From: a virus
Strand: one strand, 5' to 3'
Length of the DNA stretch: 64,000 nt
IMG/VR virus record: IMGVR_UViG_3300029286_000009
Span: 124,001 to 188,000 of that record
Shown here in pieces: positions 1 through 19,652 of this stretch. The notes beneath the pieces are model-generated. The model ran no database searches and was not told where the DNA came from. It worked only from the letters and a program-made list of their open reading frames with translations. Every line of letters begins with the position of its first letter. Position 1 is the first letter of the stretch. Made by a program: the position numbers and the translations under genes.

Positions 1-94
1 TATGGAGCACCTGGTAGGGGCACAACCGGGAACCTGCCTCTAGTCTAAGGGGCGCGCTTAGGGTGGGGCAGCCACCAATAACAGGAGGTGCCCA
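1..94 (+). ncRNA. Structured leader, copy A (5' end outside window)
   Basis: This stretch lies just upstream of the RHRR peptide at 95 and can be aligned by eye with the leader at 19376-19502. Shared blocks in the same order are an ACAnCCGG block, AACCTGCC, GGGGCG, a GGG(T)GGGGCAG-like block and CAnTAA. TGCCTC can pair with the later GGGGCA, as CTGCCCC pairs with GGGGCAG in copy B. The promoter and first helix would lie left of the window. The function is unknown; a cis-regulatory RNA for the downstream peptide is an inference. Confidence 0.5.
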
Positions 95-409
95 ATGGAC
101 TCCTACAACAGCATTGAAGGTTTGGCTCGAACCACAGTGCAGTGGTTCAAACGCCATCGTCGAGCAGTAGTGATCGTGGCAAAGATTCTGTATATTCTCT
201 ATAGAATCTGTAGAATCTATATGTGCGACCCAGACTACTTGATGCGGAGGATGACAGACTCACACTCTGCCATCTGTAGCACCGCCGCCCTTAGCAAAAT
301 CACTTCTTCCATAGTCTCTTCTCCTTTACTTCCCAACAAGATAGGGGTTCCTATACTGGTCTGTTGTTTCTGGGGTAATGATACCTTGTCTCAAAAAGGA
401 ATCTCGTAG
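95..409 (+). CDS. RHRR-type membrane micro-protein, copy A
   Basis: The ORF follows an AGGAGGTGCCCA ribosome site. Its N-terminal 45 residues match the 34-residue peptide at 19503: a Trp, then RHRR, then about 20 hydrophobic residues rich in I, V, L and Y. This suggests one membrane segment with a positive inside anchor. After residue 45 the frame runs antisense through two minus-strand genes and looks non-native, so the real product may be shorter or the tail unimportant. There is no homologue I recognise. Confidence 0.5.
   Translation: MDSYNSIEGLARTTVQWFKRHRRAVVIVAKILYILYRICRIYMCDPDYLMRRMTDSHSAICSTAALSKITSSIVSSPLLPNKIGVPILVCCFWGNDTLSQKGIS
235..312 (-). CDS. 25-residue hypothetical peptide
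   Basis: A short frame begins 14 bases after the stop of the 595-326 gene, behind an AAAGGAGA ribosome site. The product begins MEEVILLRAA. It lies antisense to the end of the plus-strand RHRR gene, so at most one of the two is likely to be important here. No family is recognised. Confidence 0.35.
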   Translation of the reverse strand: MEEVILLRAAVLQMAECESVILRIK

Positions 410-595
410 AAGCATCCGAGATAAGTGACCAATTTCGTCCTCGATAAAGAGCAAGTCATTGGTGATGTGTGTTATGTCTTTTCCATCCGCCACCATTCTA
501 AATTTGGACTTTGTGAGGAATCGGTAAGCGAACCAGTTGAGTCGCAGAAGGCTTTTTACCAATAACCGTAACCACCAAGTTAATGGTCGATCCAT
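326..595 (-). CDS. Hypothetical protein, 89 aa
   Basis: The ATG follows an AAAGGAAAA ribosome site. The N-terminus (WWLRLLVKSLLRLNWFAYRFL) is hydrophobic and basic and could form an amphipathic or membrane-associated helix; the rest is acidic and helical. It is the last sizeable gene of the minus block seen here. No family is recognised. Confidence 0.6.
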   Translation of the reverse strand: MDRPLTWWLRLLVKSLLRLNWFAYRFLTKSKFRMVADGKDITHITNDLLFIEDEIGHLSRMLLRDSFLRQGIITPETTDQYRNPYLVGK

Positions 596-622
596 TTTAA
601 TTTTCCTTTCTTTTACATTTTT

Positions 623-701
623 CAGCCAAACGGCGACGGGGAGTTGAACCCCGCCACCTCCGGGTATGAGCCGTTGGTCAGACCGCTTTACCGTTTAGCT
701 G
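623..701 (-). ncRNA. tRNA-like element with CAU-type loop
   Basis: Read on the minus strand, an 11-bp helix closes the element (CAGCUAAACGG with CCGUUUGGCUG, one G-U pair). That pair becomes a C-A mismatch on the plus strand, which favours minus transcription. Inside is a CGGGG/CCCCG hairpin whose loop fits the T-arm consensus GTTCRANTC, preceded by CTCATAC and CCGGAGG as in the 3' half of bacterial tRNA-Met. The D-arm is reduced to GGT-CTG-ACC and no CCA end is encoded. It may be a degenerate tRNA, a tRNA mimic or a processed RNA. Confidence 0.45.
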
Positions 702-1021
702 CTCCGCCCTCCTCAGGCTGGCCGGGACCGCGGGGAAAACAGAAACCAAATTTTTTGTTTTGCTGGCGACAATTGGAGTTGGCCACCAGCAGTTTGAAAG
801 GAGACGAAAGAGATAAGTCAAGAACTGGAAGAGGTTTGTGAGACAACCCTCATGTATGTGCTATCTTGATTATCCCGAATATTCATTAAATATACCTTAT
901 TGGGGTAGTGGGACTACCAATAAAGGCATATTAGAAAGGGTACATGCGTAATTAACTTAGGTAGGGGCCTCTACATAAGAGACTCCTACTCTTTCGGAAC
1001 GTCTTTTTCTAGGATGATTAG
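702..1021 (-). other. Intergenic stretch with two hairpins
   Basis: No convincing gene is seen. Two strong hairpins lie downstream of the 1312-1022 gene: 961-989 (11 of 12 pairs around a 5-base loop) and 897-923 (TTATTGG paired with CCAATAA around a GGTAGT stem). They may end the upstream operon or protect the 3' end, and they precede the tRNA-like element. Confidence 0.4.
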
Positions 1022-1312
1022 TTACTGCATAAACTGAAGATTGACAGTCATCTGGGGTTCTTCTCCATTGTGTTTTTTAGCTTCCATGTCTGCTCCTTGC
1101 TGGATTCCGACTAGGAAGATTGATTGCATCGCCAAGGCCAGCGGAATATCAAGTTTAGTAGTTAACTCAAGTGCACGTCTGGCAAGATATTCTGCCCACC
1201 GCATTCCTTCTTGGTCTAGAAGGTTCTGGGCGTTTTTCCTGGTTTCAACGAAACTCTCATTCTTCAGTTTTTTTTCCAGTGTCATAATATCGTTAATTGT
1301 GAATTTTGGCAC
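1022..1312 (-). CDS. Hypothetical protein, 96 aa
   Basis: It starts behind a GGAGGTAAAGTGCC ribosome site, directly after the membrane protein 1538-1314. The product is mostly helical and charged in its first half. The second half has a hydrophobic patch (IPLALAMQSIFLVGI), which may be a buried helix. No family is recognised. Confidence 0.7.
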   Translation of the reverse strand: MPKFTINDIMTLEKKLKNESFVETRKNAQNLLDQEGMRWAEYLARRALELTTKLDIPLALAMQSIFLVGIQQGADMEAKKHNGEEPQMTVNLQFMQ

Positions 1313-1313
1313 T

Positions 1314-1538
1314 TTACCTCCGTTCTCCGGGCGGGTTCTTTTGCAAGAGGTTTAGCCTCACCCATAGTTCTGCATGCTCTTTTTGCACTACTTCTTCAAT
1401 TTTGTCGAGCTTATAGTCAATATAGGCGGCTTCATAGCCTGCGGTTCTTCCACTAATCCTACCTATTGTAGCACCAATTGACAAGCTCAGAACGAGAATG
1501 ATTAGAACTAAGAGACTTACGTCGTTATCATTCCACAT
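1314..1538 (-). CDS. Small membrane protein with coiled tail
   Basis: I chose the internal ATG at 1538 because AGGAGGTCGC precedes it; a longer frame would overlap the upstream gene. The product begins MWNDND, has one membrane segment (about residues 7-27, rich in L, I and V), then a basic and charged helix. It probably sits in the inner membrane with a cytoplasmic helix. It lies between the TAXI-like gene and the 1312-1022 gene. Confidence 0.7.
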   Translation of the reverse strand: MWNDNDVSLLVLIILVLSLSIGATIGRISGRTAGYEAAYIDYKLDKIEEVVQKEHAELWVRLNLLQKNPPGERR

Positions 1539-1546
1539 GCGACCTC

Positions 1547-2470
1547 CTACTTTTTGACTACCGGGTCGTACTTGAGCCACGTAAATTCATCCGGGTTTTC
1601 GGCATCATTCCACGAAGGATGTGACCCATTCATTTCCTTGATATCTTGCAGGTTGTCCAGCAAGCACTGTTTAAATGCAAGTATTTGACTTACCTTGGAC
1701 GCACTGGAATAGTTCCACACAGCAACAATATTGCGGGGAGCTGCAGTAATGATACCCATGGCCCCAAGCTTGGGGTAGTTGAGCTTCACGAGCTTGTAAG
1801 GCTCACCTAGTTTTTTCACGTAGCTTTCATCCAGACTGGCAAGCGTGAAAGTGTTTGGGTCAAGATCATCTATCCACTCGATAGGCCACCCAGCTGTAGC
1901 AAACACTGCTACGACTTCGCCGCTCTTTAGCATGCCCGTAGCCTCTGCGGGGGACTTCATCCTTACCAACTGCAGCCCTGCCTGAAGTCTTTCGTTCAGA
2001 AATTCTCCGGTTACAATCGCACTACCAAAACATCCAATCTTTTTGCCGCGTAGATCACGCAAATCTTGAATGACCATTCGGTTGTCGCCACCTATCCCTA
2101 TACGACTGAACCACCCACCTTTGGAAGCACTCCCGTCTTTCATGATTACAATGTGTAATGAGTTATAGTGCAGACCCACTAACCCACGCACGTTCTTGGC
2201 TACATTGGGATCAGTACGCCGTGCCATTTCCATAACATCCTCAGGTACGATACCCATGTTGACCTTCTTTGTCATTATGAGGTTGAGGTTGTCGAATCCA
2301 CCCGTAGTGTCATTATATTCTTTGACCATCGGACAATAGGTGGCGAGGTTTCGAAACATCATTGAATAGGTTGCTTTGGGATTCCCAGTAGCAAGGGTCA
2401 GGGGATCCTCAGCAAACGCACCTGTAAAGGTAATGGCTACCAACATAACTACCACAATCAAGCTTTTCAT
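1547..2470 (-). CDS. TAXI-type periplasmic solute-binding-like protein
   Basis: A signal peptide (residues 1-20, cut after TGAFA) is followed by features of the TAXI family of TRAP-transporter receptors: an early ATGNPKATY stretch, NLNLIMTKKVNMGIV, and later two-lobed binding-protein segments. At 307 residues it has the family's usual size. No TRAP membrane subunit is visible nearby, so it is an orphan receptor, unexpected in a phage. It might bind a periplasmic ligand during infection or modify the host envelope; both are guesses. The stop overlaps the start region of nothing downstream, and its ATG overlaps the preceding gene's stop. Confidence 0.65.
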   Translation of the reverse strand: MKSLIVVVMLVAITFTGAFAEDPLTLATGNPKATYSMMFRNLATYCPMVKEYNDTTGGFDNLNLIMTKKVNMGIVPEDVMEMARRTDPNVAKNVRGLVGLHYNSLHIVIMKDGSASKGGWFSRIGIGGDNRMVIQDLRDLRGKKIGCFGSAIVTGEFLNERLQAGLQLVRMKSPAEATGMLKSGEVVAVFATAGWPIEWIDDLDPNTFTLASLDESYVKKLGEPYKLVKLNYPKLGAMGIITAAPRNIVAVWNYSSASKVSQILAFKQCLLDNLQDIKEMNGSHPSWNDAENPDEFTWLKYDPVVKK

Positions 2471-2661
2471 TTTTCTTCTTCCTTTTTCTTGTTTGTTCTG
2501 AGCAAGGGGAAATATTCTTCCCTGGGTCTGTCGTGAAAGAGATCGAAATCAGTTTCGTCCAAGAATTTATTTAGATTTTCTGGAGAGCTAAAAACTTTCT
2601 CTATGTAGTCCTCCATTTCCTTCTCCCACGCAGGTTTAATTATGCTGCTCTTCGTCCGCAT
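2467..2661 (-). CDS. Hypothetical acidic protein, 64 aa
   Basis: The ATG at 2661 is preceded by GAGGTGGTT, which favours it over a longer frame. The product begins MRTKSSIIKP, is rich in E, D and K and ends in a lysine/glutamate run. Its stop overlaps the start of the TAXI-like gene, so the two are probably co-translated. No family is recognised. Confidence 0.65.
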   Translation of the reverse strand: MRTKSSIIKPAWEKEMEDYIEKVFSSPENLNKFLDETDFDLFHDRPREEYFPLLRTNKKKEEEK

Positions 2662-2668
2662 AACCACC

Positions 2669-2746
2669 TCAGTCTTCTTGCAAGAGCATACCAATTGCGA
2701 TTGCAATCGCAACAGTAACTATCACACCAATTATGATATCAGGCAT
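2669..2746 (-). CDS. 25-residue membrane peptide
   Basis: A strong TAGGAGGTAATCG ribosome site precedes a short frame that is almost entirely one membrane helix (I, V, A and G rich) ending LLQED. It is one of several membrane micro-proteins in this block. Confidence 0.6.
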   Translation of the reverse strand: MPDIIIGVIVTVAIAIAIGMLLQED

Positions 2747-2753
2747 TTTTCGA

Positions 2754-2891
2754 TTACCTCCTAAACATTGATGAGGGTTGGTCGGCTGAACGGGGTGTGG
2801 GGTTGTCGGGGGCAGAAAGTACGAGTAGTAGGCATACTAGTGCGACTGCTATTACACCAGCGATACGAAACCATTTCCAAAATGTAGTCAT
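2754..2891 (-). CDS. 45-residue single-pass membrane protein
   Basis: The start overlaps the stop of the upstream gene (ATGA) and follows AAAGGAACC. The product begins MTTFWKWFR, has one hydrophobic segment of about 18 residues and a proline/serine-rich polar tail. Its AGGAGGTAA end supplies the ribosome site of the next gene. This looks like an N-in, C-out micro-protein; a spanin-like or lysis role cannot be tested here. Confidence 0.6.
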   Translation of the reverse strand: MTTFWKWFRIAGVIAVALVCLLLVLSAPDNPTPRSADQPSSMFRR

Positions 2892-3628
2892 CCAAGGTTC
2901 CTTTCGACTGTCTTAGGTTTAAGCAACTCCTCCAAGTTGGTGTGAGTAGTTTCAATTTGTTCTGCTTGGGACAGCACACTCTTAACTTCTAGCTCTCCGA
3001 ATATCTTATCAAACTGTTCAGAAACTGACTTAAGTGCTTCATCGGTAAGGAGCTGCTGCATCGCATCCCCTTCAGCTCCCTCGACACTCGCCATAGCTGT
3101 TTTGCCCGCCTCTACGAACGTGAGCTCAAAACGTTTACGTTCTATTTCTTTCTCATAATCCTTACACGCTTGTACAGCGGACTGAAGTTTTGTCATATTG
3201 GTAGCGTGAAACATCTGCATTGCAGCTAGAGACTTTCGGGGGATCGCGAGGTCGTGGTCAGGGTCGCGGTGAACTTCGTCATCGAGCATCCGTTCCATAG
3301 TCTTAACGATCCCACCAATACGTCCAAGGGCCCCCTCAGTAACTTTTATCTGTTCTTTTCGCTTGAGCAGAGTATTCTGTAGCTGCTCAATGGGGTTCGT
3401 GCGGGCTTCGGACTTGCGGGCAGATAGAATTGCATTTTCCCATTTCTGTCCTAGCATGGGCAAAGCAGAGAACAGCCCAAATCCCAAAATGCCCACAATC
3501 CCGATTCCCAATAAACCTAGTCCTGCCAGAAAGGCAGAGTAGATAATTGGGAGCAAGATTGCTAGTCCGGCGATACCGCCAAGGATAGCTATTCCTCTTA
3601 CCAACAGTTTTTGTTTTTTCTCATCCAT
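2888..3628 (-). CDS. Membrane-anchored coiled-coil protein
   Basis: The first 60 residues contain two adjoining membrane segments rich in G, L, I and A, followed by about 170 residues of charged helix with heptad-like spacing. The start is either ATG 3628 or ATG 3637; both lie behind GGAGGTGA, and the upstream gene overlaps them. It may be a membrane scaffold in the infected cell. No family is recognised. Confidence 0.7.
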   Translation of the reverse strand: MDEKKQKLLVRGIAILGGIAGLAILLPIIYSAFLAGLGLLGIGIVGILGFGLFSALPMLGQKWENAILSARKSEARTNPIEQLQNTLLKRKEQIKVTEGALGRIGGIVKTMERMLDDEVHRDPDHDLAIPRKSLAAMQMFHATNMTKLQSAVQACKDYEKEIERKRFELTFVEAGKTAMASVEGAEGDAMQQLLTDEALKSVSEQFDKIFGELEVKSVLSQAEQIETTHTNLEELLKPKTVERNLG

Positions 3629-3800
3629 TTGTAGCATTCACCTCCGTAGATTCAACGACTCCGTCCCAATGGCCCCGGTAGTAAGCTCTTCGTGCTATTC
3701 TTTCAACAATGTGCATCACCAAGTCCTCACAGTTTGCCGGATCCAGCTCTTCGTGTACCATCTTATTGCACCACTCTCTTGTCTCGTCAAACCTAGACAT
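3621..3800 (-). CDS. Hypothetical protein, 59 aa
   Basis: An AAGGAGATAAA ribosome site precedes MSRFDETREW. The product is helical, with a CNKMVHEE segment and a WDG turn, and ends in the start region of the next gene. It has the look of a conserved small phage protein, but I do not recognise it. Confidence 0.65.
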   Translation of the reverse strand: MSRFDETREWCNKMVHEELDPANCEDLVMHIVERIARRAYYRGHWDGVVESTEVNATNG

Positions 3801-3809
3801 TTTATCTCC

Positions 3810-4028
3810 TTATTCTTTGGGTGAAAATCTTTCGCAATTTCCGTAGTAGTTATCGTTGCAGGATGCCCAAGTGACTTCTCCAGTTCTGCAGTCGATATTT
3901 TTCTTAGAATGACACTCCCAAAAGCAACTATGTTTAGCTTTCCAGTGGAACGGCCACATGAATGTTGTATTCCCCGCAAACTTGCACTCTATGCATAACG
4001 TTTTGCATATAGGTGTTGCTATTTCCAT
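3810..4028 (-). CDS. Cys-rich hypothetical protein, 72 aa
   Basis: GGAGAAATGAT precedes the ATG. The protein has eight cysteines and several histidines (C8, C12, C15, then FHWKAKHSCFWEC, CRTG, SCND, NCER), suggesting metal binding or disulphides. Alternate frames over the same bases lack a ribosome site. Confidence 0.65.
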   Translation of the reverse strand: MEIATPICKTLCIECKFAGNTTFMWPFHWKAKHSCFWECHSKKNIDCRTGEVTWASCNDNYYGNCERFSPKE

Positions 4029-4029
4029 A

Positions 4030-4278
4030 TCATTTCTCCGTGTTGATTTCTCTATTCCTTCTAGCCCATGCTAGAAATTGTGGTACCGTGCCATAAAATA
4101 CATCCTCGTCTTCGTCGCGTACACACACATGCGGGTCTATCCTGTTACCTTCGCAGTCTACGTCTGCTACCGATACGCAAAAGTCCATCGGGTCTCCAAC
4201 GTAGACCGCTACGTCGCGGTCGTTTATTTCTCTTACATAAGGTTTGTCCTCGTCCGTGTATATCGTAACTGTTACCAT
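4030..4278 (-). CDS. Hypothetical protein, 82 aa
   Basis: The ATG at 4278 sits behind GAGGAGGTAC and is preferred to an upstream in-frame start. The product alternates short beta-like stretches with acidic loops (DEDKPYVREIND). No family is recognised. Confidence 0.65.
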   Translation of the reverse strand: MVTVTIYTDEDKPYVREINDRDVAVYVGDPMDFCVSVADVDCEGNRIDPHVCVRDEDEDVFYGTVPQFLAWARRNREINTEK

Positions 4279-4286
4279 GTACCTCC

Positions 4287-4628
4287 TCACAGAACCTCAA
4301 CGGATATTTGTGCATCTGAAGACATTTCATTAAGTTCTTTTTCCACTTGGTCTAGCAGATAGGCCAGATGACACAATATTCGTTTTACGTCATCGGGCAA
4401 GTCTACTTCCGGATCAAAGCCTCCGCGGGCGTCTAGTATGCAAGCTTGGATGCCCCCCTTCTTGACTTTAGGACACACTGCCGGTCCGAGTGCACGAGCA
4501 GTCTTACTGGCTTGCTTCTTTAGCTCATTTACAAAATGAACAATGAGAACAATCTCTGGATAAGAATGATGGGTTTTAAATAGGTAATTTTCCAGATGTT
4601 CCCACATTTGTTTATAATCAAGTTCCAT
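4287..4628 (-). CDS. Hypothetical helical protein, 113 aa
   Basis: It starts ten bases inside the end of the HNH gene. The first 40 residues and the last 30 form charged amphipathic helices; the middle has a basic stretch (PKVKKGGIQ). No family is recognised. Confidence 0.65.
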   Translation of the reverse strand: MELDYKQMWEHLENYLFKTHHSYPEIVLIVHFVNELKKQASKTARALGPAVCPKVKKGGIQACILDARGGFDPEVDLPDDVKRILCHLAYLLDQVEKELNEMSSDAQISVEVL

Positions 4629-5181
4629 CTTCTAGTTCCCTTTTTGTCCATGAATCCTTTTCGTCATAATCAAAAACAAATCTACCCTTCTCTGTCTTGC
4701 CTATCATTTTTACTCTTGGTATCCCCGCAGTCTCCAATGTTTTGTCTTTTCTGTTAACAATAAAGTCTACTCTGCAGTGCTCGCACATTACCAAATACCC
4801 CTCGGGCTTGTTGACATAAGCTATCTTGGACCAGCTGCGCCGCCCCTTTGTGTCTTGTCCACAATAAGGGCATGTTACTGTTGCTCTTGGTGTGCCCCAT
4901 TTATCCCAAGTAAAGTCCGGGTCTAATTGAGGGGGTAGTAAAGGTGGGATGCCAATTATAGCCCGTAACTCATCAGGTGAAATTTTACCCGTTTCACAAT
5001 GCCAGTGGTGATCAGCACACAGTGATGCACCGTTGCTAAGGTAATAACCACCATCTGGCCACAGTGCTCTGTCTATTATATGATGGGCATCCACAGGGGG
5101 TTCTCCACAAATGACACACTTACAGTTATCTCGGTTAAATACGGCTTCCTTGAACTTTTCTCGTGTCAGTAATTCTTCCAC
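4618..5181 (-). CDS. HNH endonuclease
   Basis: The N-terminal 70 residues carry an HNH nuclease: CKCVICGEPP, then DAHHIIDRALWP, then ASLCADHHWHCE, giving two CxxC-type zinc pairs and the HH/N/H metal-binding set. A second zinc ribbon follows (CPYC at about residue 103, then CEHC). Such proteins are common in phages as free-standing homing or packaging-associated nucleases. The extra ribbon may bind DNA. Confidence 0.8.
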   Translation of the reverse strand: MEELLTREKFKEAVFNRDNCKCVICGEPPVDAHHIIDRALWPDGGYYLSNGASLCADHHWHCETGKISPDELRAIIGIPPLLPPQLDPDFTWDKWGTPRATVTCPYCGQDTKGRRSWSKIAYVNKPEGYLVMCEHCRVDFIVNRKDKTLETAGIPRVKMIGKTEKGRFVFDYDEKDSWTKRELEDGT

Positions 5182-5383
5182 TATTTTTGATCCCCTTTTT
5201 CTGTACCCCGTGTTCGTTTGTAGTATTACTCAGCTGCAGTGAGGAACAGGGTGTATTAGCTCTGCCACAATATCACCCTAGGTATCTTTCCATTCTCCGT
5301 CCGTTATTGGGTCTGCCCCGAAACAAGATTTTACTTCTTCAAAAGTCATTACTAACTCTCTCTTGATCTGTATCTTGTGTAGA
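5182..5383 (-). other. Short gap with a possible 23-residue ORF at 5278-5349
   Basis: A minus-strand ATG at 5349 behind GAGAGAGTTAGTA opens MTFEEVKSCFGADP and stops at TAG after 23 codons. The frame continues as GDIVAELIHPVP before a further stop, which resembles a decayed gene. Nothing else is seen in this gap. Confidence 0.3.
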
Positions 5384-5587
5384 CTACTTTGATTCCTCCC
5401 GTATTTCTGCTAATCTTTTGTTTACATGATCCTGCATGTTCACATATGCGTCACTGTAACCCAGCTTGTAAGCCATTATCATCATTGGATAGGCCACAGT
5501 ACCTCTTCGTTCCATCGATGCTTCGAGCCCAATCGCTTCTTCCAGCAATGCCAACATTTTTTCGTGTACTTCAGATTCGTATGGCAC
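5384..5587 (-). CDS. Hypothetical protein, 67 aa
   Basis: A GTG start at 5587 behind GAGGAGGATTAAAG is preferred, because longer frames run deep into the upstream zinc protein. The product is helical with a hydrophobic, methionine-rich centre (YPMMIMAYKLGYSDAY). No family is recognised. Confidence 0.6.
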   Translation of the reverse strand: MPYESEVHEKMLALLEEAIGLEASMERRGTVAYPMMIMAYKLGYSDAYVNMQDHVNKRLAEIREESK

Positions 5588-5589
5588 CT

Positions 5590-5964
5590 TTAATCCTCCT
5601 CGGGCACACGGCTTATGTATCCGCAGTTCGGGCATTTACACAGGTCCTCAACTTGGTATAAGAAGGTCGCATCTAACATTACATGAAAGCCACAGCTTGG
5701 GCATTCATACGGGCCTTCTAGTTCACACTTTTCTACTTCAACGGGTAGCCATATTCCAGCTGGTGTGTGTAGTTCGTGGTACCAACTTATTGCTCGATAA
5801 ACGGATTGAGCCAAATCTTTAAAATCTTCTTTCATATCTATATGTCCTCTGCCCCACGATTGGCGCAGAAACCTATCTAATACTGCTACACACTGTGCAT
5901 CGGTTAAGATTTGCTCTTCACCTTCAGAATCCAAAAAGTCAGTATTTTCCGTGTCTGAATCCAT
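5590..5964 (-). CDS. Zinc-ribbon protein, 124 aa
   Basis: A strong AAGGAGGC site precedes the ATG. The acidic N-terminus is followed by helices, and the last 40 residues contain CPSC and, 26 residues on, CxCPNC, a classical zinc ribbon. A nucleic-acid or protein-binding role is likely; the specific job is unknown. Confidence 0.7.
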   Translation of the reverse strand: MDSDTENTDFLDSEGEEQILTDAQCVAVLDRFLRQSWGRGHIDMKEDFKDLAQSVYRAISWYHELHTPAGIWLPVEVEKCELEGPYECPSCGFHVMLDATFLYQVEDLCKCPNCGYISRVPEED

Positions 5965-6095
5965 ATAATTTAAGCCTCCTTGCTACTTCTTTCTCTGAAA
6001 ACGTGCCCCCGCACCCGTAGTAAAGGTCTACCCAATCAGCCCTGTAATCGGAATACCAGTACGGAATATATTGGTAAACCTTTGTCTAATTTCAT
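5939..6095 (-). pseudogene. Small gene interrupted by a +1 frameshift
   Basis: ATG 6095 has a good AAAAGGAAAGACGT site and overlaps the upstream stop (ATGA). The frame reads MKLDKGLP and then soon stops. Moving +1 after AAA (codon 5) gives a convincing tail rich in Y, W and D (YIPYWYSDYRADWVDLYYG) that ends inside the next gene. The length of 157 bases fits a single +1 shift. It could be programmed frameshifting, a real mutation or a base-call error. Confidence 0.45.
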
Positions 6096-6316
6096 ACGTC
6101 TTTCCTTTTAATCACCCATTTGTAACGTAGGATACATTCTACGCCAATTGAGTGAAGGACTGCGGGGCGGACCCAGTTAGCTGTCTGGTCAATCCATACC
6201 TGTTGATCTTCTGCCTTTAAGTATATGCTGTATTGATCAACATCTTCTGCATTGGCAATCTTTTCGCCAGCACGCAAGTAAGGAAGCATTTCGTCAAATG
6301 TAAGATACTCTGTCAT
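6092..6316 (-). CDS. Tad2/DUF2829-like mini-protein
   Basis: The 74-residue product has the layout TFDEMLPYLRAGEKI, a polar strand region, a central WIDQTANW and a closing RYKWVIKR. This N-terminal FxxxLxxLxxG with a C-terminal WxV is shared with 6471-6689 and with the repeats of 16052-16624. It resembles the DUF2829/Tad2 fold, members of which sequester signal nucleotides of host defences. The assignment rests on motif spacing only. Confidence 0.5.
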   Translation of the reverse strand: MTEYLTFDEMLPYLRAGEKIANAEDVDQYSIYLKAEDQQVWIDQTANWVRPAVLHSIGVECILRYKWVIKRKDV

Positions 6317-6392
6317 CTACTATTTCCCCCACTTTAAATTGTTGATTTTGAACCATAAGAATGTCGTATGTCAGTATAAGTGCACTTCTCAC
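6294..6392 (-). CDS. Possible 32-residue peptide
   Basis: GTG 6392 lies ten bases after AAAGGA and opens MRSALILTYD; the frame ends inside the next gene. The same frame stays open upstream for about 17 codons (NKFGGIKPKDIGK) without a normal start, so the true gene may begin earlier at an unusual codon or be broken. Confidence 0.35.
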   Translation of the reverse strand: MRSALILTYDILMVQNQQFKVGEIVDDRVSYI

Positions 6393-6470
6393 TTTACCGA
6401 TATCCTTTGGTTTAATGCCCCCGAATTTATTCGTGGGGAGTAGTCACACATGGTAGAACTTCTATGAAGA

Positions 6471-6689
6471 TTACATTTTTTTTCTCCGTTTTCCCACATT
6501 CCAATCACCTGTAATTACTTCTTCCCATGAGAGGCTGCTACTCGCACCTCTGAGCTTTCGACCACGATCGAACCGGCGGTAGCCCAACCGATAGTCACTT
6601 CTCAGATAATACTCAGTTACAATTGCACCAATAACTACGTGAACTACCTCACCACGGATAAGGTTTGGCATTATTTCTTCAAACTTCAC
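6471..6689 (-). CDS. Tad2/DUF2829-like mini-protein
   Basis: A GTG start overlaps the upstream stop (GTGA) behind GGGAGCG. The product reads MKFEEIMPNLIRGEV, then strands, then ITGDWNVGKRR. It has the same layout as 6092-6316, and both lie in one run of genes. The C-terminus is basic. Family assignment is by eye. Confidence 0.5.
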   Translation of the reverse strand: MKFEEIMPNLIRGEVVHVVIGAIVTEYYLRSDYRLGYRRFDRGRKLRGASSSLSWEEVITGDWNVGKRRKKM

Positions 6690-6898
6690 TTTTCGCTCCC
6701 GCTCTCCCTCTTACGCAAAGATTCTTTTGATGTCGGTCCGACTCGAATGTGTGCGAATTCTGTGTTTTCAAACCAGATAAAACTTCCATCTGTAAACCCA
6801 ATGCGGATAACATCATCATCGGCTGCTTCACTTCCGTTTATCTTCGTTGAAGAAATTGTTTTGCCTATAATTTGGTTTAATTTATTTTGATTTTCCAT
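6686..6898 (-). CDS. Hypothetical protein, 70 aa
   Basis: AGGAGATAAG precedes the ATG. A central DVIRIGFTDGSFIWF segment resembles EDRLLLSFTDGS in 12921-13118, so the two may share a small beta fold. The C-terminus is basic and polar. No function is known. Confidence 0.6.
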   Translation of the reverse strand: MENQNKLNQIIGKTISSTKINGSEAADDDVIRIGFTDGSFIWFENTEFAHIRVGPTSKESLRKRESGSEK

Positions 6899-6951
6899 CT
6901 TATCTCCTTCAGTAAACTGTTAATTGTTGCTCGCGAAGTTCTTTCTGAATT

Positions 6952-11633: not shown

Positions 11634-11641
11634 TGTAACCT

Positions 11642-12223: not shown

Positions 12224-12460
12224 TTATTTTTCTCCTATTTGCTTTTTTCTGACTGAAATGTGAATGTAAGGAAGACCTAACTCTAGCGTTACTGTGATTT
12301 CCCCACCGTCTCCAAACCAACTGATATTACCCCCGAATCCGATATTGTGTCCCAGACCATATTTGGAGTAAAGCCTCCGATATCCCAAGAGAAAGATAAT
12401 ATCGGTTCTGAAGATGCTACACCAAATTTTCAAACTACCAAAAGCTATGTTTACTTTCAT
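12224..12460 (-). CDS. Hypothetical protein, 78 aa
   Basis: ATGA overlap with the upstream gene supports the start. The product is strand-rich (GNISWFGDGGEITVTLELG, PYIHISVRKK) with a hydrophobic N-terminal half. No family is recognised. Confidence 0.6.
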   Translation of the reverse strand: MKVNIAFGSLKIWCSIFRTDIIFLLGYRRLYSKYGLGHNIGFGGNISWFGDGGEITVTLELGLPYIHISVRKKQIGEK

Positions 12461-12924: not shown

Positions 12925-13118
12925 GATACCAACTCCTCCGCATTATGGGTGGGGCCTTCTTGGTAGAATACACACAAATGAGTAGTTTCTTCTCTATTCT
13001 TCACTTTTACACGTATTAAAACTCTTGCACGAGAACCATCTGTAAACGAAAGTAGTAATCGATCCTCTTTAAGAGTAGCTACAGCGATCTCTTTTTCAAC
13101 TAGTTTTGGAATTTCCAT
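12921..13118 (-). CDS. Hypothetical protein, 65 aa
   Basis: AAAGGAAAGATA precedes the ATG. The core EDRLLLSFTDGS is similar to DVIRIGFTDGS in 6686-6898, suggesting a shared small beta fold. The function is unknown. Confidence 0.6.
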   Translation of the reverse strand: MEIPKLVEKEIAVATLKEDRLLLSFTDGSRARVLIRVKVKNREETTHLCVFYQEGPTHNAEELVS

Positions 13119-13159
13119 TATCTTTCCTTTCTACTTGCACTCATTTTCCTACGTTTCCA

Positions 13160-13375
13160 TCAGACAATATCAATACACGCTGTAGGGATTTCCCACTTGC
13201 AAGTTTTGAGTTGGTCACCCTTGCACGAATGTCTCTTTTTGCAGACTTGGCATTTAACCGGAAGTCTTCTACATTTATTGCAGTAAGCATCGCGGGGGTA
13301 GTTATTTGGAACACTGACTTCCCAGCATATACCACAGAGTGCTGTATCATCCTTGGCATAATGGTCTGTAAACAT
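13160..13375 (-). CDS. Multi-cysteine zinc protein, 71 aa
   Basis: AAGGATAAAA precedes the ATG. Three CxxC pairs (CGIC, CNKC, CQVC) plus further cysteines suggest one or two zinc sites, possibly RING- or treble-clef-like. An overlapping frame 13359-13141 lacks a ribosome site. Confidence 0.65.
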   Translation of the reverse strand: MFTDHYAKDDTALCGICWEVSVPNNYPRDAYCNKCRRLPVKCQVCKKRHSCKGDQLKTCKWEIPTACIDIV

Positions 13376-13398
13376 TTTTATCCTTGGTTATTATCCTC

Positions 13399-13659
13399 TT
13401 ACTTTCTTGTGCAGCTTTCGCTTTGATCCGTGTAAAACTTGTGTTCACATATAATATCCTCTATAACTTGGCAGCATATAACTCTGAGTGGTTTCTTATA
13501 ATTGTGTTCGATCCTCAGTTTGTAGAAGCTCATTGCCTCGTGAAGATGTGTGAACCCATTACGTTCACCGAGCTCAGCCCCACACCACCCATATCGCGTG
13601 TCCCATGTGAACCACTCTGCTCCCTCCGCTCCAGCTTCTTGGACAAAATATTGCTTCAT
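13399..13659 (-). CDS. Hypothetical protein, 86 aa
   Basis: GGGGAGAGTT precedes the ATG. The N-terminal half is rich in glycine and tryptophan (WFTWDTRYGWCG); the C-terminal half is mixed and has four cysteines. No family is recognised. Confidence 0.6.
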   Translation of the reverse strand: MKQYFVQEAGAEGAEWFTWDTRYGWCGAELGERNGFTHLHEAMSFYKLRIEHNYKKPLRVICCQVIEDIICEHKFYTDQSESCTRK

Positions 13660-13856
13660 AACTCTCCCCAGAGCGTATTCTTTGGTGTAAGTGCTTTATC
13701 GAGTAACCTTTTAATATCTTCTTCCGCATCACTTTTTATGGTGATAAGAATTCCTTTTTCTTCGCCCTCACACCATGTACACTCCTTAGGGAAGGCATCG
13801 CTTGCGTAAACTTGTACTCGGCACTTACTGCATTGTAACAACCGTATTATACCCAT
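13656..13856 (-). CDS. Zinc-ribbon protein, 66 aa
   Basis: ATG 13856 follows AAAGGAGACATTG. CSKC near the N-terminus and CTWC about 20 residues later form a zinc ribbon, followed by an acidic helix. The stop overlaps the next start. Confidence 0.65.
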   Translation of the reverse strand: MGIIRLLQCSKCRVQVYASDAFPKECTWCEGEEKGILITIKSDAEEDIKRLLDKALTPKNTLWGEL

Positions 13857-13874
13857 CAATGTCTCCTTTCTATC

Positions 13875-16055
13875 TTAATTTGCCTTCTCCTTGGTGCCGC
13901 TGAGGTATCTGTCAATTTCCTCCACCAACACACGATTGATAAGTTTACGGTTAGGCGATTTGGGCAATGAAGATTTATCCATTACTTCATTCAGTGCTTT
14001 GTCTTCCTTTTCCGCCCACTCGATTAGTTCCTCATACTTCCAAGCACCATTACGAATAGCGAGTAATTCTTCTGCGTCAGGGCGTCGTACGATTACGCCT
14101 TTACCTTCTAGTATTTCTCGTGCCATACGCATGAGACGAACAAGGTGAAGGGCGTGTTTAGAGTTCCCATGAATCGCAATTTTACCTTTTCTTCTGGTGA
14201 TAAGAACTTCGTTTGGAACCGTAAAACACACAACATGTCCATTTTTAACCCTGACAGGATGAATGTGTTGAGACTTACTCAAGTATGCACAGGTTCTAGT
14301 TTTTCCGATATATACCTGATACATTGCACAGTTGCCAAATTCTCTTGGTTTACGATCATAATAGTAAGGGCCCCATACTTGTGATACAATTCCGGCTTGT
14401 AAACACATTATCTGGACATCATCAGCTAGCCTCTTCAGGCTTGTATAGTATATACTACTAAATTTTCGGTATGTGCCGTCTCCGCCAATTAATCCTTCTA
14501 GCATCAATCTAGCTTGTCTTTCGTTAAGTTTGTCTTTAAAATGTGGGAGATGTTTGTTTTTTGCTTTGCCACACAAACCATATATCTCATCAGCAAGTTG
14601 GGCAGAGAATGAGTAAACACATTCTTTTGTAATTCTGCCTGACTTTAGTGTACGCTCATAATAGTATCGCTTCGCACCGTAACATTCTCTCAGATTTTCT
14701 AACCAAGGAATAAGGGGACTAGCAGGGTGTTGCGATATATTTAAAGACTTTGCTTTGTTTTTATAGAAAATTATAGACCCTTCGGCAATATATACACCAA
14801 TCAGCCTAAGTTTTTCGTTAGGTATCGGGTAATCTTCTCTGGGATTACAAGTTAATCTTGCATGAAAAGATCCGTAACGAGATTTTTCTATCTTGTCTAC
14901 CGATATTAGTGCCCAATCTGCCTGCTCTGGGTTGTATTTGATAGTAAAGTTATTGGATTTTTGTCGGTGGGTTCTGGTTACAAGTAATCTATGGTTGCTT
15001 GTCACAACACAGTTAGATTGTTGCATCCTTATCTCATATAGGAACCCAGAAGCTCTGTATGAATCTCGACCCAAGAAATGTTGATACTCTAAATTTCCTT
15101 CAGTGTTGATCGTTCCTAATTTATCGTTCTCAGATATTTCTCTGTATAACTTCCAACCTGTATCAGTCAAAAACTCGGTATCACTTAGATAACAGTCAAA
15201 TCCGTGCTTTTGTTCAAGTTCTGATCTTTTCGGATTACGTTCCTGCTTCCACTTTTCGTAATGATTCCAATCTTCCAGGTGGTTCTTGTAAGCAGAATAT
15301 CTTTGAAGATAGTTTACGAAGTCAGAATCGAATCCCAGCGTTCTGTTCGCCGCCCGTTCTAACACATCCTTGAGATGGTCTACATTAGCCTCTATGTAGA
15401 GTTGTTCAGTCACTACATTAACCATACGAACCATTTCTGGTCCTAGCTGTATCTTGGTGTCTTCCGTCAAGTGGGTCTGATCAACTAACCATTCACCTAC
15501 TTGAAGTTCTATCATTTTCAGAGCACCGTGTAGTTGGTCCTTCGGGAATTTCATTCCTTCTATCCCGTAGTCTGCACGCGTAGGATAGGTGGGCGGGTTG
15601 CTAGTCCAGCGATGATGGTTGCGCATCCTTTTGAGCTGTTGCATAGCGTACCCACTAAAGCGGTGTTTAAGTAGCTTACTGAGGAATGCATCCTTGATTT
15701 TGGAGAACCTTTCCATAAGTGGGTGTGCATAGATGATTGAATCTTCAGGAACGAACAACAGTTCCAGCATATTCGGGTTTCCATCTGCTGCTAATCCGAT
15801 CATTTTTTTAAGTGACCAGATTACAATATCACTATCGGGAACCAAGTCTCTCCTTGTTCCTTTAGCAACCAGAGGAATTACTTCTTTGCTATCAGTTTGC
15901 TCGAAGTTACCAAACCCGTAGAAATATTCTTTAGGAGGAATAGTCGCCCCCCGGTAATCCATATCTGATTCGGGTGTATTTGTCCCGTAAAGTTGAGATC
16001 CTGCGGGGGTAAGATAGACAATGTTTGAACCTATCCAGTTTTTTATGTTTATCAA
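13875..16055 (-). CDS. Predicted nucleotidyltransferase with inserted intein
   Basis: The extein is a polymerase-beta-type nucleotidyltransferase: near the N-terminus GSQLYGTNTPESDMDYRGA supplies the GS motif and the two metal-binding aspartates. The conserved GFD-SKHALHLVRL segment is split by a 344-residue intein. I prefer TTG 16055 (SD GGGAAGGAAG, TTGA overlap with the upstream stop); ATG 16082 would add 9 residues. After splicing the protein is about 382 residues. Phage members of this family are common but their substrate is unsettled; RNA end modification would fit the ligases on the plus strand. Confidence 0.85.
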   Translation of the reverse strand: MINIKNWIGSNIVYLTPAGSQLYGTNTPESDMDYRGATIPPKEYFYGFGNFEQTDSKEVIPLVAKGTRRDLVPDSDIVIWSLKKMIGLAADGNPNMLELLFVPEDSIIYAHPLMERFSKIKDAFLSKLLKHRFSGYAMQQLKRMRNHHRWTSNPPTYPTRADYGIEGMKFPKDQLHGALKMIELQVGEWLVDQTHLTEDTKIQLGPEMVRMVNVVTEQLYIEANVDHLKDVLERAANRTLGFDSDFVNYLQRYSAYKNHLEDWNHYEKWKQERNPKRSELEQKHGFDCYLSDTEFLTDTGWKLYREISENDKLGTINTEGNLEYQHFLGRDSYRASGFLYEIRMQQSNCVVTSNHRLLVTRTHRQKSNNFTIKYNPEQADWALISVDKIEKSRYGSFHARLTCNPREDYPIPNEKLRLIGVYIAEGSIIFYKNKAKSLNISQHPASPLIPWLENLRECYGAKRYYYERTLKSGRITKECVYSFSAQLADEIYGLCGKAKNKHLPHFKDKLNERQARLMLEGLIGGDGTYRKFSSIYYTSLKRLADDVQIMCLQAGIVSQVWGPYYYDRKPREFGNCAMYQVYIGKTRTCAYLSKSQHIHPVRVKNGHVVCFTVPNEVLITRRKGKIAIHGNSKHALHLVRLMRMAREILEGKGVIVRRPDAEELLAIRNGAWKYEELIEWAEKEDKALNEVMDKSSLPKSPNRKLINRVLVEEIDRYLSGTKEKAN
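14163..15194 (-). other. LAGLIDADG-containing intein
   Basis: The insert begins at Cys (CYLSDTEFLTDTGW, block A) and has a block-B-like VVTSNHRLLV. A dodecapeptide homing endonuclease is marked by LIGVYIAEGS and LEGLIGGDGTY. It ends ITRRKGKIAIHGN before Ser+1. The terminal pair is Gly-Asn rather than His-Asn, with His at the third-last position, an unusual but known variant. Cys1, the TxxH-type histidine (TSNH), Asn and Ser+1 are all present, so splicing should work. Confidence 0.85.
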
Positions 16056-16624
16056 GCTTCCTTCCCTTCTATAATTCTCCATTTACTTTTGAACGCCCAG
16101 TCTAGACTTAGTGGTGAGGTTCTCAGTCCTGTTAAACAGAATTCATAGCCGTTTTCGGCCTCAATAGCGTTAACTTCACCAGACTCCATACCTTTCAAGG
16201 CTTCTAGAAAAGAAAGGGGGTAATCTTTTACGACTTGCCACTTCATCTGTGTGAGTAAGCCATTCACCGAGCATCCGGAATCTAGCCATTTGTCCATAAA
16301 CACCTGCAATTTACCTTTACAGTATCTGTAGTTCCAGCAATTTCCTACGGGGCGCATGATGATAGTCTCATCCTCCGACATTTTATTCAGGGCGTCCAAA
16401 AAACTCACCCCACTGTCTGCGAGCTGAGAACAATTACCCGTAACTTCCCACTCTTCTTCTGGGAAGGAATTAACTGTAAGCATAGAGATTACCCACCTGC
16501 CACAATTACAGAGTTCCAGCTTTCCCTGGTTGAATCGATAGTTATTGTTGTTAGCATGCCCTACGGGCCTCATAACGAGACCTTCACACTCTGCCATCTT
16601 CTTCAAAGCGTCTATGAAGTTCAT
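16052..16624 (-). CDS. Three-repeat protein of Tad2/DUF2829-like layout
   Basis: ATG 16624 follows AGGAGCAAAGGCAAA. Three repeats of about 60 residues each open with FxxALxxM (FIDALKKM, FLDALNKM, FLEALKGM), continue with RPVG and YR strands, and close with a W-x-V type strand (EEWEV, MKWQVV, SKWRII). The layout resembles DUF2829/Tad2 domains, and tandem copies would suit multivalent ligand binding. Two single-domain relatives lie at 6.1-6.7 kb. The defence-inhibitor role is inference. Confidence 0.6.
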   Translation of the reverse strand: MNFIDALKKMAECEGLVMRPVGHANNNNYRFNQGKLELCNCGRWVISMLTVNSFPEEEWEVTGNCSQLADSGVSFLDALNKMSEDETIIMRPVGNCWNYRYCKGKLQVFMDKWLDSGCSVNGLLTQMKWQVVKDYPLSFLEALKGMESGEVNAIEAENGYEFCLTGLRTSPLSLDWAFKSKWRIIEGKEA

Positions 16625-16643
16625 TTTGCCTTTGCTCCTGTCT

Positions 16644-16874
16644 CTATAACTTACACAGTTCCTCAAGTTCGATCAGCCTTAATTTTCGCAAAGTGTGAGC
16701 GACCCAACTTAAGTCGGCGAGCCTCTGCATTTTTATGATCCTTTGTTTAGGGTAGTAAGATGCAATAACTTCTATGCCATCTGGAGATGGGTCTTGTTTT
16801 TTGATTAAATCCTCTAATTCTTTGGCTGTCACATCACAGTTATCTACTACCAGTGCACAACATACGATATTCAT
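16644..16874 (-). CDS. Hypothetical protein, 76 aa
   Basis: GGGAGGAGCAAT precedes the ATG. The product begins MNIVCCALVVDNCDVTAKEL and is followed by a helical C-terminus. A frameshifted paralogue lies at 11390-11633. No family is recognised. Confidence 0.7.
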   Translation of the reverse strand: MNIVCCALVVDNCDVTAKELEDLIKKQDPSPDGIEVIASYYPKQRIIKMQRLADLSWVAHTLRKLRLIELEELCKL

Positions 16875-16935
16875 ATTGCTCCTCCCTCCTAGTTCTCCTC
16901 TACTTTCGCAAAACGTCGGTATCAGACAGTTGCTG

Positions 16936-17145
16936 TTATTGTGCTATCTCCTCAGTAAAATACTGATCGCAATGCGGGCATCTACTACTCTCGTAATCTC
17001 CCCCGTCGTATACTACCCTGGAGTCTGGGTGCACTTTGCGATAATGTTTGTTGTTGGGGGCGACCTTAGAATTATTCCACGGATCTTCTGCAGTGCATAT
17101 AAACTCGTAAAAATCAGACAATGTTGGATGTTTTACGAATGGCAT
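16936..17145 (-). CDS. Hypothetical protein with CPHC knuckle, 69 aa
   Basis: AGGAGATTCTA precedes the ATG. A single CPHC lies near the C-terminus, with Cys 17 and histidines elsewhere. It may bind zinc with few ligands or as an oligomer. Confidence 0.6.
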   Translation of the reverse strand: MPFVKHPTLSDFYEFICTAEDPWNNSKVAPNNKHYRKVHPDSRVVYDGGDYESSRCPHCDQYFTEEIAQ

Positions 17146-17154
17146 TAGAATCTC

Positions 17155-17355
17155 CTAATTTTCCCCCTTACTTTCACAAGGACGCCATTCCTTGTTACCG
17201 TGAGTATTGCACCAACTTTGAACCCCGTCTCCCAAGGTGCACTGTACCGTGTAATATTTGTGGTCGCAGAAGATACAATTCAACCCATTATCCCATCGTT
17301 GTTGTGTCAGAGTAATTGGTGGGTCGTATTTATCGTTCTCGTAAACTATTTCCAT
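17155..17355 (-). CDS. Cys-rich protein, 66 aa
   Basis: ATG 17355 overlaps the upstream stop (TAATG) behind GTGGAGAAATA. CIFC and later CNTH and C residues suggest a zinc site. No family is recognised. Confidence 0.6.
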   Translation of the reverse strand: MEIVYENDKYDPPITLTQQRWDNGLNCIFCDHKYYTVQCTLGDGVQSWCNTHGNKEWRPCESKGEN

Positions 17356-17585
17356 TATTTCTCCACTAGACCTTTCTGCTCTTCCCACTTGCCAGTAAGC
17401 TTATTGAGCCCCCATGTGTGGTCAGCCCAATTACGGGAATATACCCCCTCTATTTTGAATCCTTCAAATATCGTATGCATCTCCATAAGAGCATTAAGGT
17501 CGGTCAGACAGTCTACATGGATAGCGTGCCATGTGGAGCTGATGTCTCCCCATTCATAAACTTCTTCTTCAAGTATAAGGTACAT
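17355..17585 (-). CDS. Hypothetical protein, 76 aa
   Basis: ATG 17585 overlaps the upstream stop (TAATG) with CTGGAGCAAAAG before it, so I reject a longer frame. The product begins MYLILEEEVY and is rich in W, D and H. No family is recognised. Confidence 0.6.
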   Translation of the reverse strand: MYLILEEEVYEWGDISSTWHAIHVDCLTDLNALMEMHTIFEGFKIEGVYSRNWADHTWGLNKLTGKWEEQKGLVEK

Positions 17586-18079
17586 TACTTTTGCTCCAGT
17601 GCCTGTAGTCCAATGTAATAACCTCCGTCCACTCTTATACAGCGGACCCCGTAGTCCCATTCACCGTTCCACTCCTTAATGTTGTATGGATGGTATTCTG
17701 AGAAAGCAATATCTGCATCACTGACGAACAAAGGTGCCTTCATGTTGTCTTCCCAGAAGCGTAAAAGAAGCAGTATCACAAGTTCAGAAATTGGACTCGC
17801 GATGAATGGTCCCTCAGGTATACTCTCGTTCTCATCCCGCGCACGCCCCTCCCCTCTTCCCTGTTCCGGGGTGCTCCAGCCCCTTACCCAATCGTTGGTG
17901 GCGACAAGCGTGCCGTCAGGAGCATAAAAGTAGCTTACTGACACATCTTCAACTAGCCCTTCATCACTGAGAAACATAGTAAATCCTTCGTAAGGAGGTT
18001 TCACGTTTTCCACTTTGGTCTCAACTCTGAGAGGTTGAGCCGTCAGCCTTTTCTTCTGATTTTCTAATGTTAAAGACAT
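17585..18079 (-). CDS. Hypothetical protein, 164 aa
   Basis: ATG 18079 follows AAAGGATAAGTTTG. The N-terminal half is strand-rich with an acidic loop; a hydrophobic helix (ISELVILLLLRFWED) lies at about residue 105, followed by an aromatic-rich end. No family is recognised. Confidence 0.65.
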   Translation of the reverse strand: MSLTLENQKKRLTAQPLRVETKVENVKPPYEGFTMFLSDEGLVEDVSVSYFYAPDGTLVATNDWVRGWSTPEQGRGEGRARDENESIPEGPFIASPISELVILLLLRFWEDNMKAPLFVSDADIAFSEYHPYNIKEWNGEWDYGVRCIRVDGGYYIGLQALEQK

Positions 18080-18190
18080 CAAACTTATCCTTTCTGTAAA
18101 AGACTAGGCTGTAGCAGTTCATTACTACATTTAATCCCTCTAGCATGGTTCAGGGTGTCCTGCCATACAGCGTTTGGAACCTAGTTATCC
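18080..18190 (-). other. Short untranslated gap
   Basis: No gene, strong hairpin or repeat is evident between the two flanking minus-strand genes. Confidence 0.5.
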
Positions 18191-18454
18191 CTACATAATG
18201 AAGAAGTTGAGTTCACTATAGTTGTAAAGCTCAGCAAGATGTGCATTTATAGCTTCCCACTGACTTACATCTTCTTCATTGTCCGAATCCCAGGGATTTG
18301 GTCCCAAACTTCTCACCCACAACTTATACTTTTCCCTTATTGTTCTCCAAGACGAAGGTGTTCCTTTTTCCGTATCGGCAAAGTAACACAAATCCGTTAC
18401 CCAAGTGGGGGTTTGGTAAAGGTCCATCTCCTCACACTGCAGATTTATACTCAT
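18191..18454 (-). CDS. Hypothetical protein, 87 aa
   Basis: AAGGAGTAACCGT precedes the ATG. The product is rich in W, D and Y, with a basic centre and an acidic stretch (SDNEEDVSQWEA). No family is recognised. Confidence 0.6.
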   Translation of the reverse strand: MSINLQCEEMDLYQTPTWVTDLCYFADTEKGTPSSWRTIREKYKLWVRSLGPNPWDSDNEEDVSQWEAINAHLAELYNYSELNFFIM

Positions 18455-18496
18455 ACGGTTACTCCTTCGTGGCGATATGTTTATAGGAGAATTTCC

Positions 18497-18676
18497 TTAG
18501 TCTATTTCGATGTTAAGTATGTCCAAGACATCCCGTAGCTCATTCATAGCCTGGTCAGCATAATCAGTGCATGGGGGTTCCACACTACGTCTAATAACCT
18601 GAAGCAGAACTAGCACAGTGCCCAACTTCATTCCGATCACTGCACTCTCGGGGTCTATAACTGTCTGTTCAGACAT
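18497..18676 (-). CDS. Hypothetical protein, 59 aa
   Basis: GAGGGCGATT precedes MSEQTVIDPE. A hydrophobic central helix (GMKLGTVLVLLQVI) is flanked by charged helices, suggesting a small helical bundle or dimer. Confidence 0.6.
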   Translation of the reverse strand: MSEQTVIDPESAVIGMKLGTVLVLLQVIRRSVEPPCTDYADQAMNELRDVLDILNIEID

Positions 18677-18704
18677 AATCGCCCTCTGTTTCTTTCGTTG
18701 TAAA

Positions 18705-18917
18705 TCAGCACCATCTTATAATGGGGTCGTAGATTGATGCCTCGTGTTTCCAACCAGGGTGGTTCTTCTGCACTCCTTTTTCTTCGGGTTTTACTACACC
18801 TGTGCCGTTACATACCGAGCACAGAGTCGGAGTTCCATCGTGTCGTGTTTGCTTACCTGTGCCACAACAGCACGGGCAAGGTTGTTCCTCTCTTTTGAAT
18901 GACCACATAACTGCCAT
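18705..18917 (-). CDS. DnaJ-type zinc-finger mini-protein
   Basis: CPCCCGTG and, about 14 residues later, CSVCNGTG reproduce two CxxCxGxG units of the DnaJ zinc domain within 70 residues. It is a paralogue of 9010-9285; 44095-44280 has the same units. There is no J-domain. A protein- or RNA-binding zinc module is plausible. Confidence 0.7.
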   Translation of the reverse strand: MAVMWSFKREEQPCPCCCGTGKQTRHDGTPTLCSVCNGTGVVKPEEKGVQKNHPGWKHEASIYDPIIRWC

Positions 18918-18928
18918 TTAAACGCTCC

Positions 18929-19297
18929 TTAACTTATTTGCCTTTTTCCTCGACCCACTCCCTCCCCCACTTGGGTGTTTGCTACTTGCCATAGCTTGCG
19001 GAGTGGGGACAGGGGAGATACGTTAATATATGCCTGGTGCTCTTTGTGAATATACACATGAAGGCAGTATAGGGGCAGCCAACCTTTATCTTCGCGAAGC
19101 GTTAGACTTATTTGCCCACCCCCATCTTTACCTGTCAGATATTCGCCGGTACACTGCCACGAGATAACTTTGAAATTAGTGAGTGAAATTATCATCTCAA
19201 CAATTTCGCGTTCATCCTTGGGGCACCATACGAACACTATCCAATACATAATATAAGCTGTTGTTATCAATAATATTATTGCTAGTTCCATTTGCAT
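18929..19297 (-). CDS. Single-pass membrane protein, 122 aa
   Basis: AAAAGGATA precedes the ATG. Residues 4-24 form a membrane helix (ELAIILLITTAYIMYW), followed by a strand-rich soluble domain (GGQISLTLRED, LHVYIH) and a basic end. No family is recognised. Confidence 0.65.
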   Translation of the reverse strand: MQMELAIILLITTAYIMYWIVFVWCPKDEREIVEMIISLTNFKVISWQCTGEYLTGKDGGGQISLTLREDKGWLPLYCLHVYIHKEHQAYINVSPLSPLRKLWQVANTQVGEGVGRGKRQIS

Positions 19298-19340
19298 TAT
19301 CCTTTTCTTTTACGGAACTATTCACCTGCCAAATAACGCA

Positions 19341-19369
19341 TTGACAAGAGCGAGGGCTATCCGTACACT
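19341..19369 (+). promoter_or_regulatory. Sigma70-type promoter
   Basis: A consensus TTGACA at 19341-19346 and TACACT at 19364-19369 are separated by exactly 17 bases. It points right, against the surrounding minus genes, and would drive the structured leader and RHRR peptide. Confidence 0.7.
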
Positions 19370-19375
19370 ATCGGA

Positions 19376-19502
19376 GGCCGGTTAATCTGGGTGTTCACGG
19401 GCCCAGAACGCCTCTGGGCCAAAGGTAAGAACACAGCCGGTCAACCTGCCCCTGTGGGGGCGACCATAAGGGGGCAGGATACATTAATCCCGAGGTAGTA
19501 TT
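19376..19502 (+). ncRNA. Structured leader, copy B
   Basis: The helices are nested. P1 pairs 19376-19383 (GGCCGGTT) with 19435-19442 (AGCCGGTC), 8 pairs including two G-U. P2 pairs 19391-19396 (GTGTTC) with 19429-19434 (GAACAC), stacked directly on P1. P3 pairs 19400-19407 (GGCCCAGA) with 19413-19420 (TCTGGGCC) around a 5-base loop. Downstream, CTGCCCC at 19446-19452 can pair with GGGGCAG at 19471-19477, or its CCCC with GGGG at 19456-19460, giving two exclusive folds just before the ribosome site. This resembles a riboswitch or attenuator, but the ligand is unknown. Confidence 0.65.
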
Positions 19503-19607
19503 ATGAGAAACCTCAAATTCCTTCGGCGGTGGCTTACACGTCATCGTCGAATGCTCTTGATTGTAGTGAAGGTAATCTTATGGCTTGTCTATAAATACTG
19601 GATATAG
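19503..19607 (+). CDS. RHRR-type membrane micro-protein, copy B
   Basis: The ATG follows CGAGGTAGTATT. The 34-residue peptide is basic at its start (LRRWLTRHRR), followed by a 16-residue hydrophobic helix and an aromatic end (YKYWI). It matches the first part of the 95-409 ORF. It would sit in the inner membrane with its N-terminus inside. Toxin-like or regulatory roles are possible for such peptides, but nothing here decides between them. Confidence 0.6.
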   Translation: MRNLKFLRRWLTRHRRMLLIVVKVILWLVYKYWI

Positions 19608-19619
19608 TTTAATTTGTTA

Positions 19620-19652
19620 GGAGGCTCTAGCAGTGTCCCCCTGCTATCCTCC
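19620..19652 (+). terminator. Hairpin after the RHRR peptide
   Basis: GGAGG...AGCAG pairs with CTGCT...CCTCC (ten pairs in two blocks) 12 bases after the stop. It lacks a strong T run on the plus side, so it may act with another factor or work for either strand. Confidence 0.5.

Follow-up and report, generated by a model that had tools for sequence, protein, structure and literature searches.

Two diverged copies of a small phage gene combine a structured leader, a predicted ribosome-site hairpin and a putative membrane micro-peptide

What is made, and under what control, from two short plus-strand elements that lie among minus-strand genes of a virus? The window that we analysed, a stretch of 64,000 nucleotides, comprises bases 124001-188000 of a virus record of 259,732 bp in total. 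The sequence-only reading had described two such elements, each a structured leader followed by a tiny peptide with the motif RHRR and a hydrophobic helix, and their orientation against the surrounding genes was borne out. Copy B extends from 19314 to 19652; copy A occupies window positions 1-409. Both elements thus exist, but the leader of copy A is truncated by the window edge, and its 5' part lies upstream: the complete copy stands at 2930-3410 of the upstream stretch L004 (window position = L004 position - 3001).

The two copies are homologous across about 310 nt, which take in an upstream block of 23 bp, the leader and the RHRR plus hydrophobic-helix peptide. The leaders had been said to align by eye, and they do so in computation, with a local score of 43.5 over the whole unit against 20.5 for the best of 300 shuffles. 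Judged by this comparison, which is of n = 2 sequences from one genome, A and B are two diverged paralogous copies of one small, self-contained phage gene that runs opposite to the block around it.

The reading frame of the peptide is conserved between the copies. Copy B encodes a micro-peptide of 34 aa (MRNLKFLRRWLTRHRRMLLIVVKVILWLVYKYWI, 19503-19607, plus strand), whose stop codon precedes a terminator-like hairpin, GGAGG..CCTCC with a weak U tract, between convergent genes (19620-19652, plus strand; found by sequence reading and folding, absent from a terminator scan). The open reading frame (ORF) of copy A (95-409, plus strand) is longer, at 104 aa, so that the description as tiny holds for B and fails for A, while the link of an RHRR plus hydrophobic-helix peptide to both leaders stands. 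Residues 1-43 of A (KRHRRAVVIVAKILYILYR) match the B peptide and only these first ~43 aa are comparable; the remainder seems, by eye, to be a run-on overlapping the end of a minus-strand gene. In the ungapped core (KRHRRAVVIVAK / TRHRRMLLIVVK), frame 0 scored 36, where the neutral mean is 17 (P 0.008), the other frames were stopped or lower-scoring, and mismatches fell 3/3/6 over the codon positions. At its start the peptide is rich in Arg and His; one helix is predicted from its hydrophobicity, and its expected place is the inner membrane of the host. When small ORFs were screened for a cationic stretch followed by a hydrophobic helix, the window gave A and B only, and 80 kb of a related 545-kb phage gave none.

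The structured leader claimed for both copies also held up, and modelling supports its fold as real. The minimum-energy fold of copy B has a helix P1 (19391-19396 with 19429-19434, GTGTTC/GAACAC) around a hairpin P2 (19400-19407 with 19413-19420, GGCCCAGA-ACGCC-TCTGGGCC), the whole spanning 19391-19434 on the plus strand, and then a two-part hairpin P3 with loop GGGCGA (19445-19478, plus strand; CCTGCCCC-TGTGG-GGGCGA-CCATA-AG-GGGGCAGG). Both folding and covariance models place the same helices in copy A, where every one is retained with different letters. There P1 is GTGTCC/GGGCAC and P2 is CCAG-TGCTC-g-CA-CCCGCCTA-TG-GAGCA-c-CTGG, with the 3' strands of P2 (3-14) and P1 (18-23) inside window positions 1-23 of the plus strand and the 5' strands, with the conserved upstream block, before the window at L004 2932-3001; P3 (34-71, plus strand) pairs CTGCCTC/GGGGCAG below an upper stem CTAAG/CTTAG and carries the loop GGGCGCG. 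P3 was ruled out as a transcription terminator, there being no U tract.

Compensatory changes between the copies, which the earlier reading had put forward as something to look for, were found. Four of the five pairs in the P3 upper stem differ between A and B, all compensated. In the structural alignment 98% of cells are paired and ten pairs are changed on both sides, against 0-2 in slid-partner controls, a count for which the alignment was fitted to the structure and to which a one-base register shift contributes part of P3. Consensus folding energy beat column shuffles with a sequence-only alignment (z -3.07; 6/1000 shuffles) and shuffles with a dynamic-programming alignment (z -4.47; 0/500), as well as with a hand alignment that is biased by design (z -5.5). 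A covariance model built from B alone recovered A end to end (88 positions, 17.3 bits, E 0.12) as its best non-self hit in 69 kb scanned, other hits reaching at most 9.7 bits. Identity is similar overall in paired and unpaired columns. While the stems of P2 and P3 have changed, their loops, CGCCT and GGGGCG respectively, are identical in A and B. CGCC of the one is complementary to GGCG of the other, and the two loops may pair as a kissing contact, the letters of which are invariant between the copies.

At its downstream end each leader forms a further hairpin, P4, at the ribosome site. In copy B the Shine-Dalgarno (SD) letters GAGGU (19492-19496) pair with ACCUC (19510-19514) within the ORF, and in copy A AGGAG (83-87) pairs with CTCCT (100-104), around start codon 95; both hairpins (19492-19514 and 83-104, plus strand) hold the start codon in the loop. 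Each has five Watson-Crick pairs of different letters, the anti-SD strand being codons 2-5, and P4 alone is worth about -5 to -6 kcal/mol. By the same definition, set post hoc after the hairpin had been noticed, 0 of the 113 other ORFs that a simple ORF caller listed in the window has such a hairpin; predicted SD accessibility is low, sixth lowest for B and sixteenth for A among 114 ORFs. The ribosome-binding site is thus predicted to be sequestered by mRNA structure in both copies, and a conserved mRNA shape probably hides its own start signal. Of the earlier account of copy B, the folds and the ribosome-site hairpin stand as predictions; the two exclusive folds are not common to the copies in detail, and the one that is common is P4.

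The best-conserved part of the unit lies 5' of both leaders and consists of GGAAYTATTCACYTRCCAAATAA followed by GC.TTGACA; GGAAYTATTCACYTRCCAAATAA.GC.TTGACA occurs only twice in the 259,732-bp record, at A and at B, and had escaped the earlier reading because the block of copy A precedes the window. The copy B block (GGAACTATTCACCTGCCAAATAA + CGCATTGACA; 19314-19346, plus strand; about 85% identity between copies, two occurrences in the record) is a promoter or regulatory region and, in the opposite orientation, may act for the divergent minus-strand gene as well. Of the consensus promoter that had been proposed, TTGACA-17-TACACT, the match is good in copy B (19341-19369, plus strand, 10/12 sigma-70-like positions), and this match alone is weak evidence because the region as a whole holds fewer such matches than shuffles do; copy A has TTGACA without a good -10. 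Were transcription of A to start about 30 nt past TTGACA, its mRNA would lack the 5' strands of both P1 and P2. Copy A has either another promoter, perhaps inside the conserved block, or a decayed one. On the minus strand, the copy A block also contains TTGTCA-18-AATAAT (L004 2932-2961, 10/12), a possible divergent promoter of the neighbouring minus-strand gene. Antisense to leader or ORF we found no sigma-70-like promoter, and the B region likewise shows no enrichment of such promoters.

That the element belongs to no described family agrees with our searches, in which neither Rfam nor Pfam gave a match and PHROG gave no significant one. No Rfam family, riboswitch and leader families included, matched at or near gathering score, and a tRNA or known-RNA origin was rejected. 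Among Pfam and PHROG profiles there was none for the B peptide, and the best for A, phrog_18607, was not significant (E 0.031); tblastn of both peptides against 50,697 phage records found none. Leader DNA patterns in IMG/VR yielded a set of 16 stretches with no comparable peptide and one of 58 stretches, nearly all in long open frames and with no matching peptide; the covariance model R2 scored nothing above 15.5 bits on 73 leader-pattern loci. Six stretches matched peptide patterns in IMG/VR and GTDB and were put down to chance, and no relative was found in the IMG/VR records, phage records or GTDB genomes scanned.

Relatives of the phage itself were sought through other genes. An RlaP-like protein of the window and its 306-aa neighbour, used as queries, found no IMG/VR relatives. 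TerL found four IMG/VR records, a fifth being added via TerL alignment: one is a 50-kb record with an identical TerL, and the others have 35-61% identity. The leader RNA is absent from all five of these records and the peptide from the four tested, records that may be fragments. The nearest large relative, IMGVR_UViG_3300037484_000435, is a 545-kb contig with 61% TerL identity that has several neighbouring genes in common in its first 60 kb; the 80 kb of it that were read are without the RNA and without a peptide of this type.

Type I toxins with antisense RNA provide known examples of structured leaders that restrain small membrane peptides. We think it somewhat probable that A and B are a duplicated small phage gene of this general design, in which a structured leader controls translation of a membrane micro-peptide much as in the type I toxin mRNAs timP and aapA3. 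Each mRNA would open with the fold of P1 around P2, then P3, and its leader would end in P4, which traps the SD; the stable 5' fold would protect the mRNA and decide whether P4 opens, and the P2 (CGCC) and P3 (GGCG) loops may form a kissing contact. Translation would be off or low during RNA synthesis, and a trans factor or refolding would turn it on afterwards, so that the tiny membrane peptide would be made under some condition only, and the outcome might be a timed perturbation of the host membrane or exclusion.

In timP/TimR, as would be the case here, a small inner-membrane peptide is encoded behind a sequestered ribosome-binding site and a stem-loop leader, and pairing between stem-loops matters for translation (PMC11228461); a leader pseudoknot is required for timP translation (PMC11228461). 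Its loop contact has 7 bp with covariation, whereas the putative one here has 4-5 bp and is unvaried, and timP lies on an enterobacterial chromosome with a known antitoxin RNA, where none is seen here (PMC11228461). The aapA/IsoA toxins of Helicobacter have an SD-sequestering hairpin whose anti-SD lies within the aapA3 ORF, as in P4, but control of the Helicobacter toxins also involves a long-distance 5'-3' fold and an antisense RNA (PMC6733600). Membrane-associated type I toxins are shorter than 60 aa and hydrophobic, with one transmembrane helix and cationic residues usually C-terminal; copy B, at 34 aa and cationic with a helix suggested by its hydrophobicity, resembles them, but its cationic residues are mainly N-terminal, as in copy A, which has 104 aa (PMC8309996). 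With an antitoxin and toxicity both hypothetical here, and with A larger than is usual for such toxins (PMC8309996), we do not class the pair as a type I toxin-antitoxin.

Could the RNA itself be the product, a duplicated structured small RNA of the phage acting as decoy, sponge or scaffold, with the peptide incidental? The strong fold of the leader and the retention of its loops and linker (CGCCT, GGGGCG, CACARCCGG, AACCTGCC) would suit such an RNA, yet the in-frame conservation of the peptide core (P 0.008), the same unusual composition of both ORFs and the retention of SD and P4 in both copies speak for a translated product, and we consider this decidedly unlikely. An ordinary duplicated early gene for a small membrane protein, its leader merely stabilising the mRNA without any switch, is unlikely too. 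Structured 5' ends are a known means of longer mRNA life, the predicted 5' end of B falls within a helix and small membrane proteins are numerous in phages; against this stand an SD hairpin kept in both copies with changed letters and seen in 0 of 113 other ORFs, and loop letters conserved on hairpins whose stems have changed.

Identical loop and linker letters in otherwise diverged leaders, together with the same upstream block in both copies, would also be expected of a leader that binds a ligand or protein, in the manner of a riboswitch or for autoregulation, and through whose common loops one factor controlled both paralogues. No Rfam riboswitch or leader matches and no ligand or protein offers itself as a candidate, so that we hold this to be very improbable. 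The translational-control reading can be carried further, to a new family of RNA-controlled phage membrane peptides in which two mRNAs with common loops act on one another in trans, or respond to one common factor, via the P2-P3 contact and with no antisense antitoxin; this extension is tentative and rather doubtful. A phage pair that follows type I control logic without a visible antitoxin would represent another way of timing such peptides, and compensatory changes between paralogues inside one genome make the fold directly testable.

Other features of the window were recorded in passing. At 631-708 on the minus strand lies a stretch resembling a tRNA, in which the T arm (CGGGGTTCAACTCCCCG) is good and the anticodon position reads CAT; it scored 17.2 bits with RF00005, below gathering (29), was not called by ARAGORN and is possibly a degenerate or unusual tRNA. 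The RlaP-like nucleotidyltransferase (13878-16082, minus strand, 735 aa) contains a LAGLIDADG-like domain by Pfam, perhaps an intein. Two diverged plus-strand copies (75%) at 38871-38925 and 46187-46241 end small Cys-rich ORFs, LCGCGFFHGPGERCGPW and MCGCGHFHRPSERCGPW, each followed by a stop, and at 30429-30522 there is an inverted repeat whose 25-nt arms are 88% complementary and stand 44 nt apart (ACCTTCTTGCTTGCTAG...).
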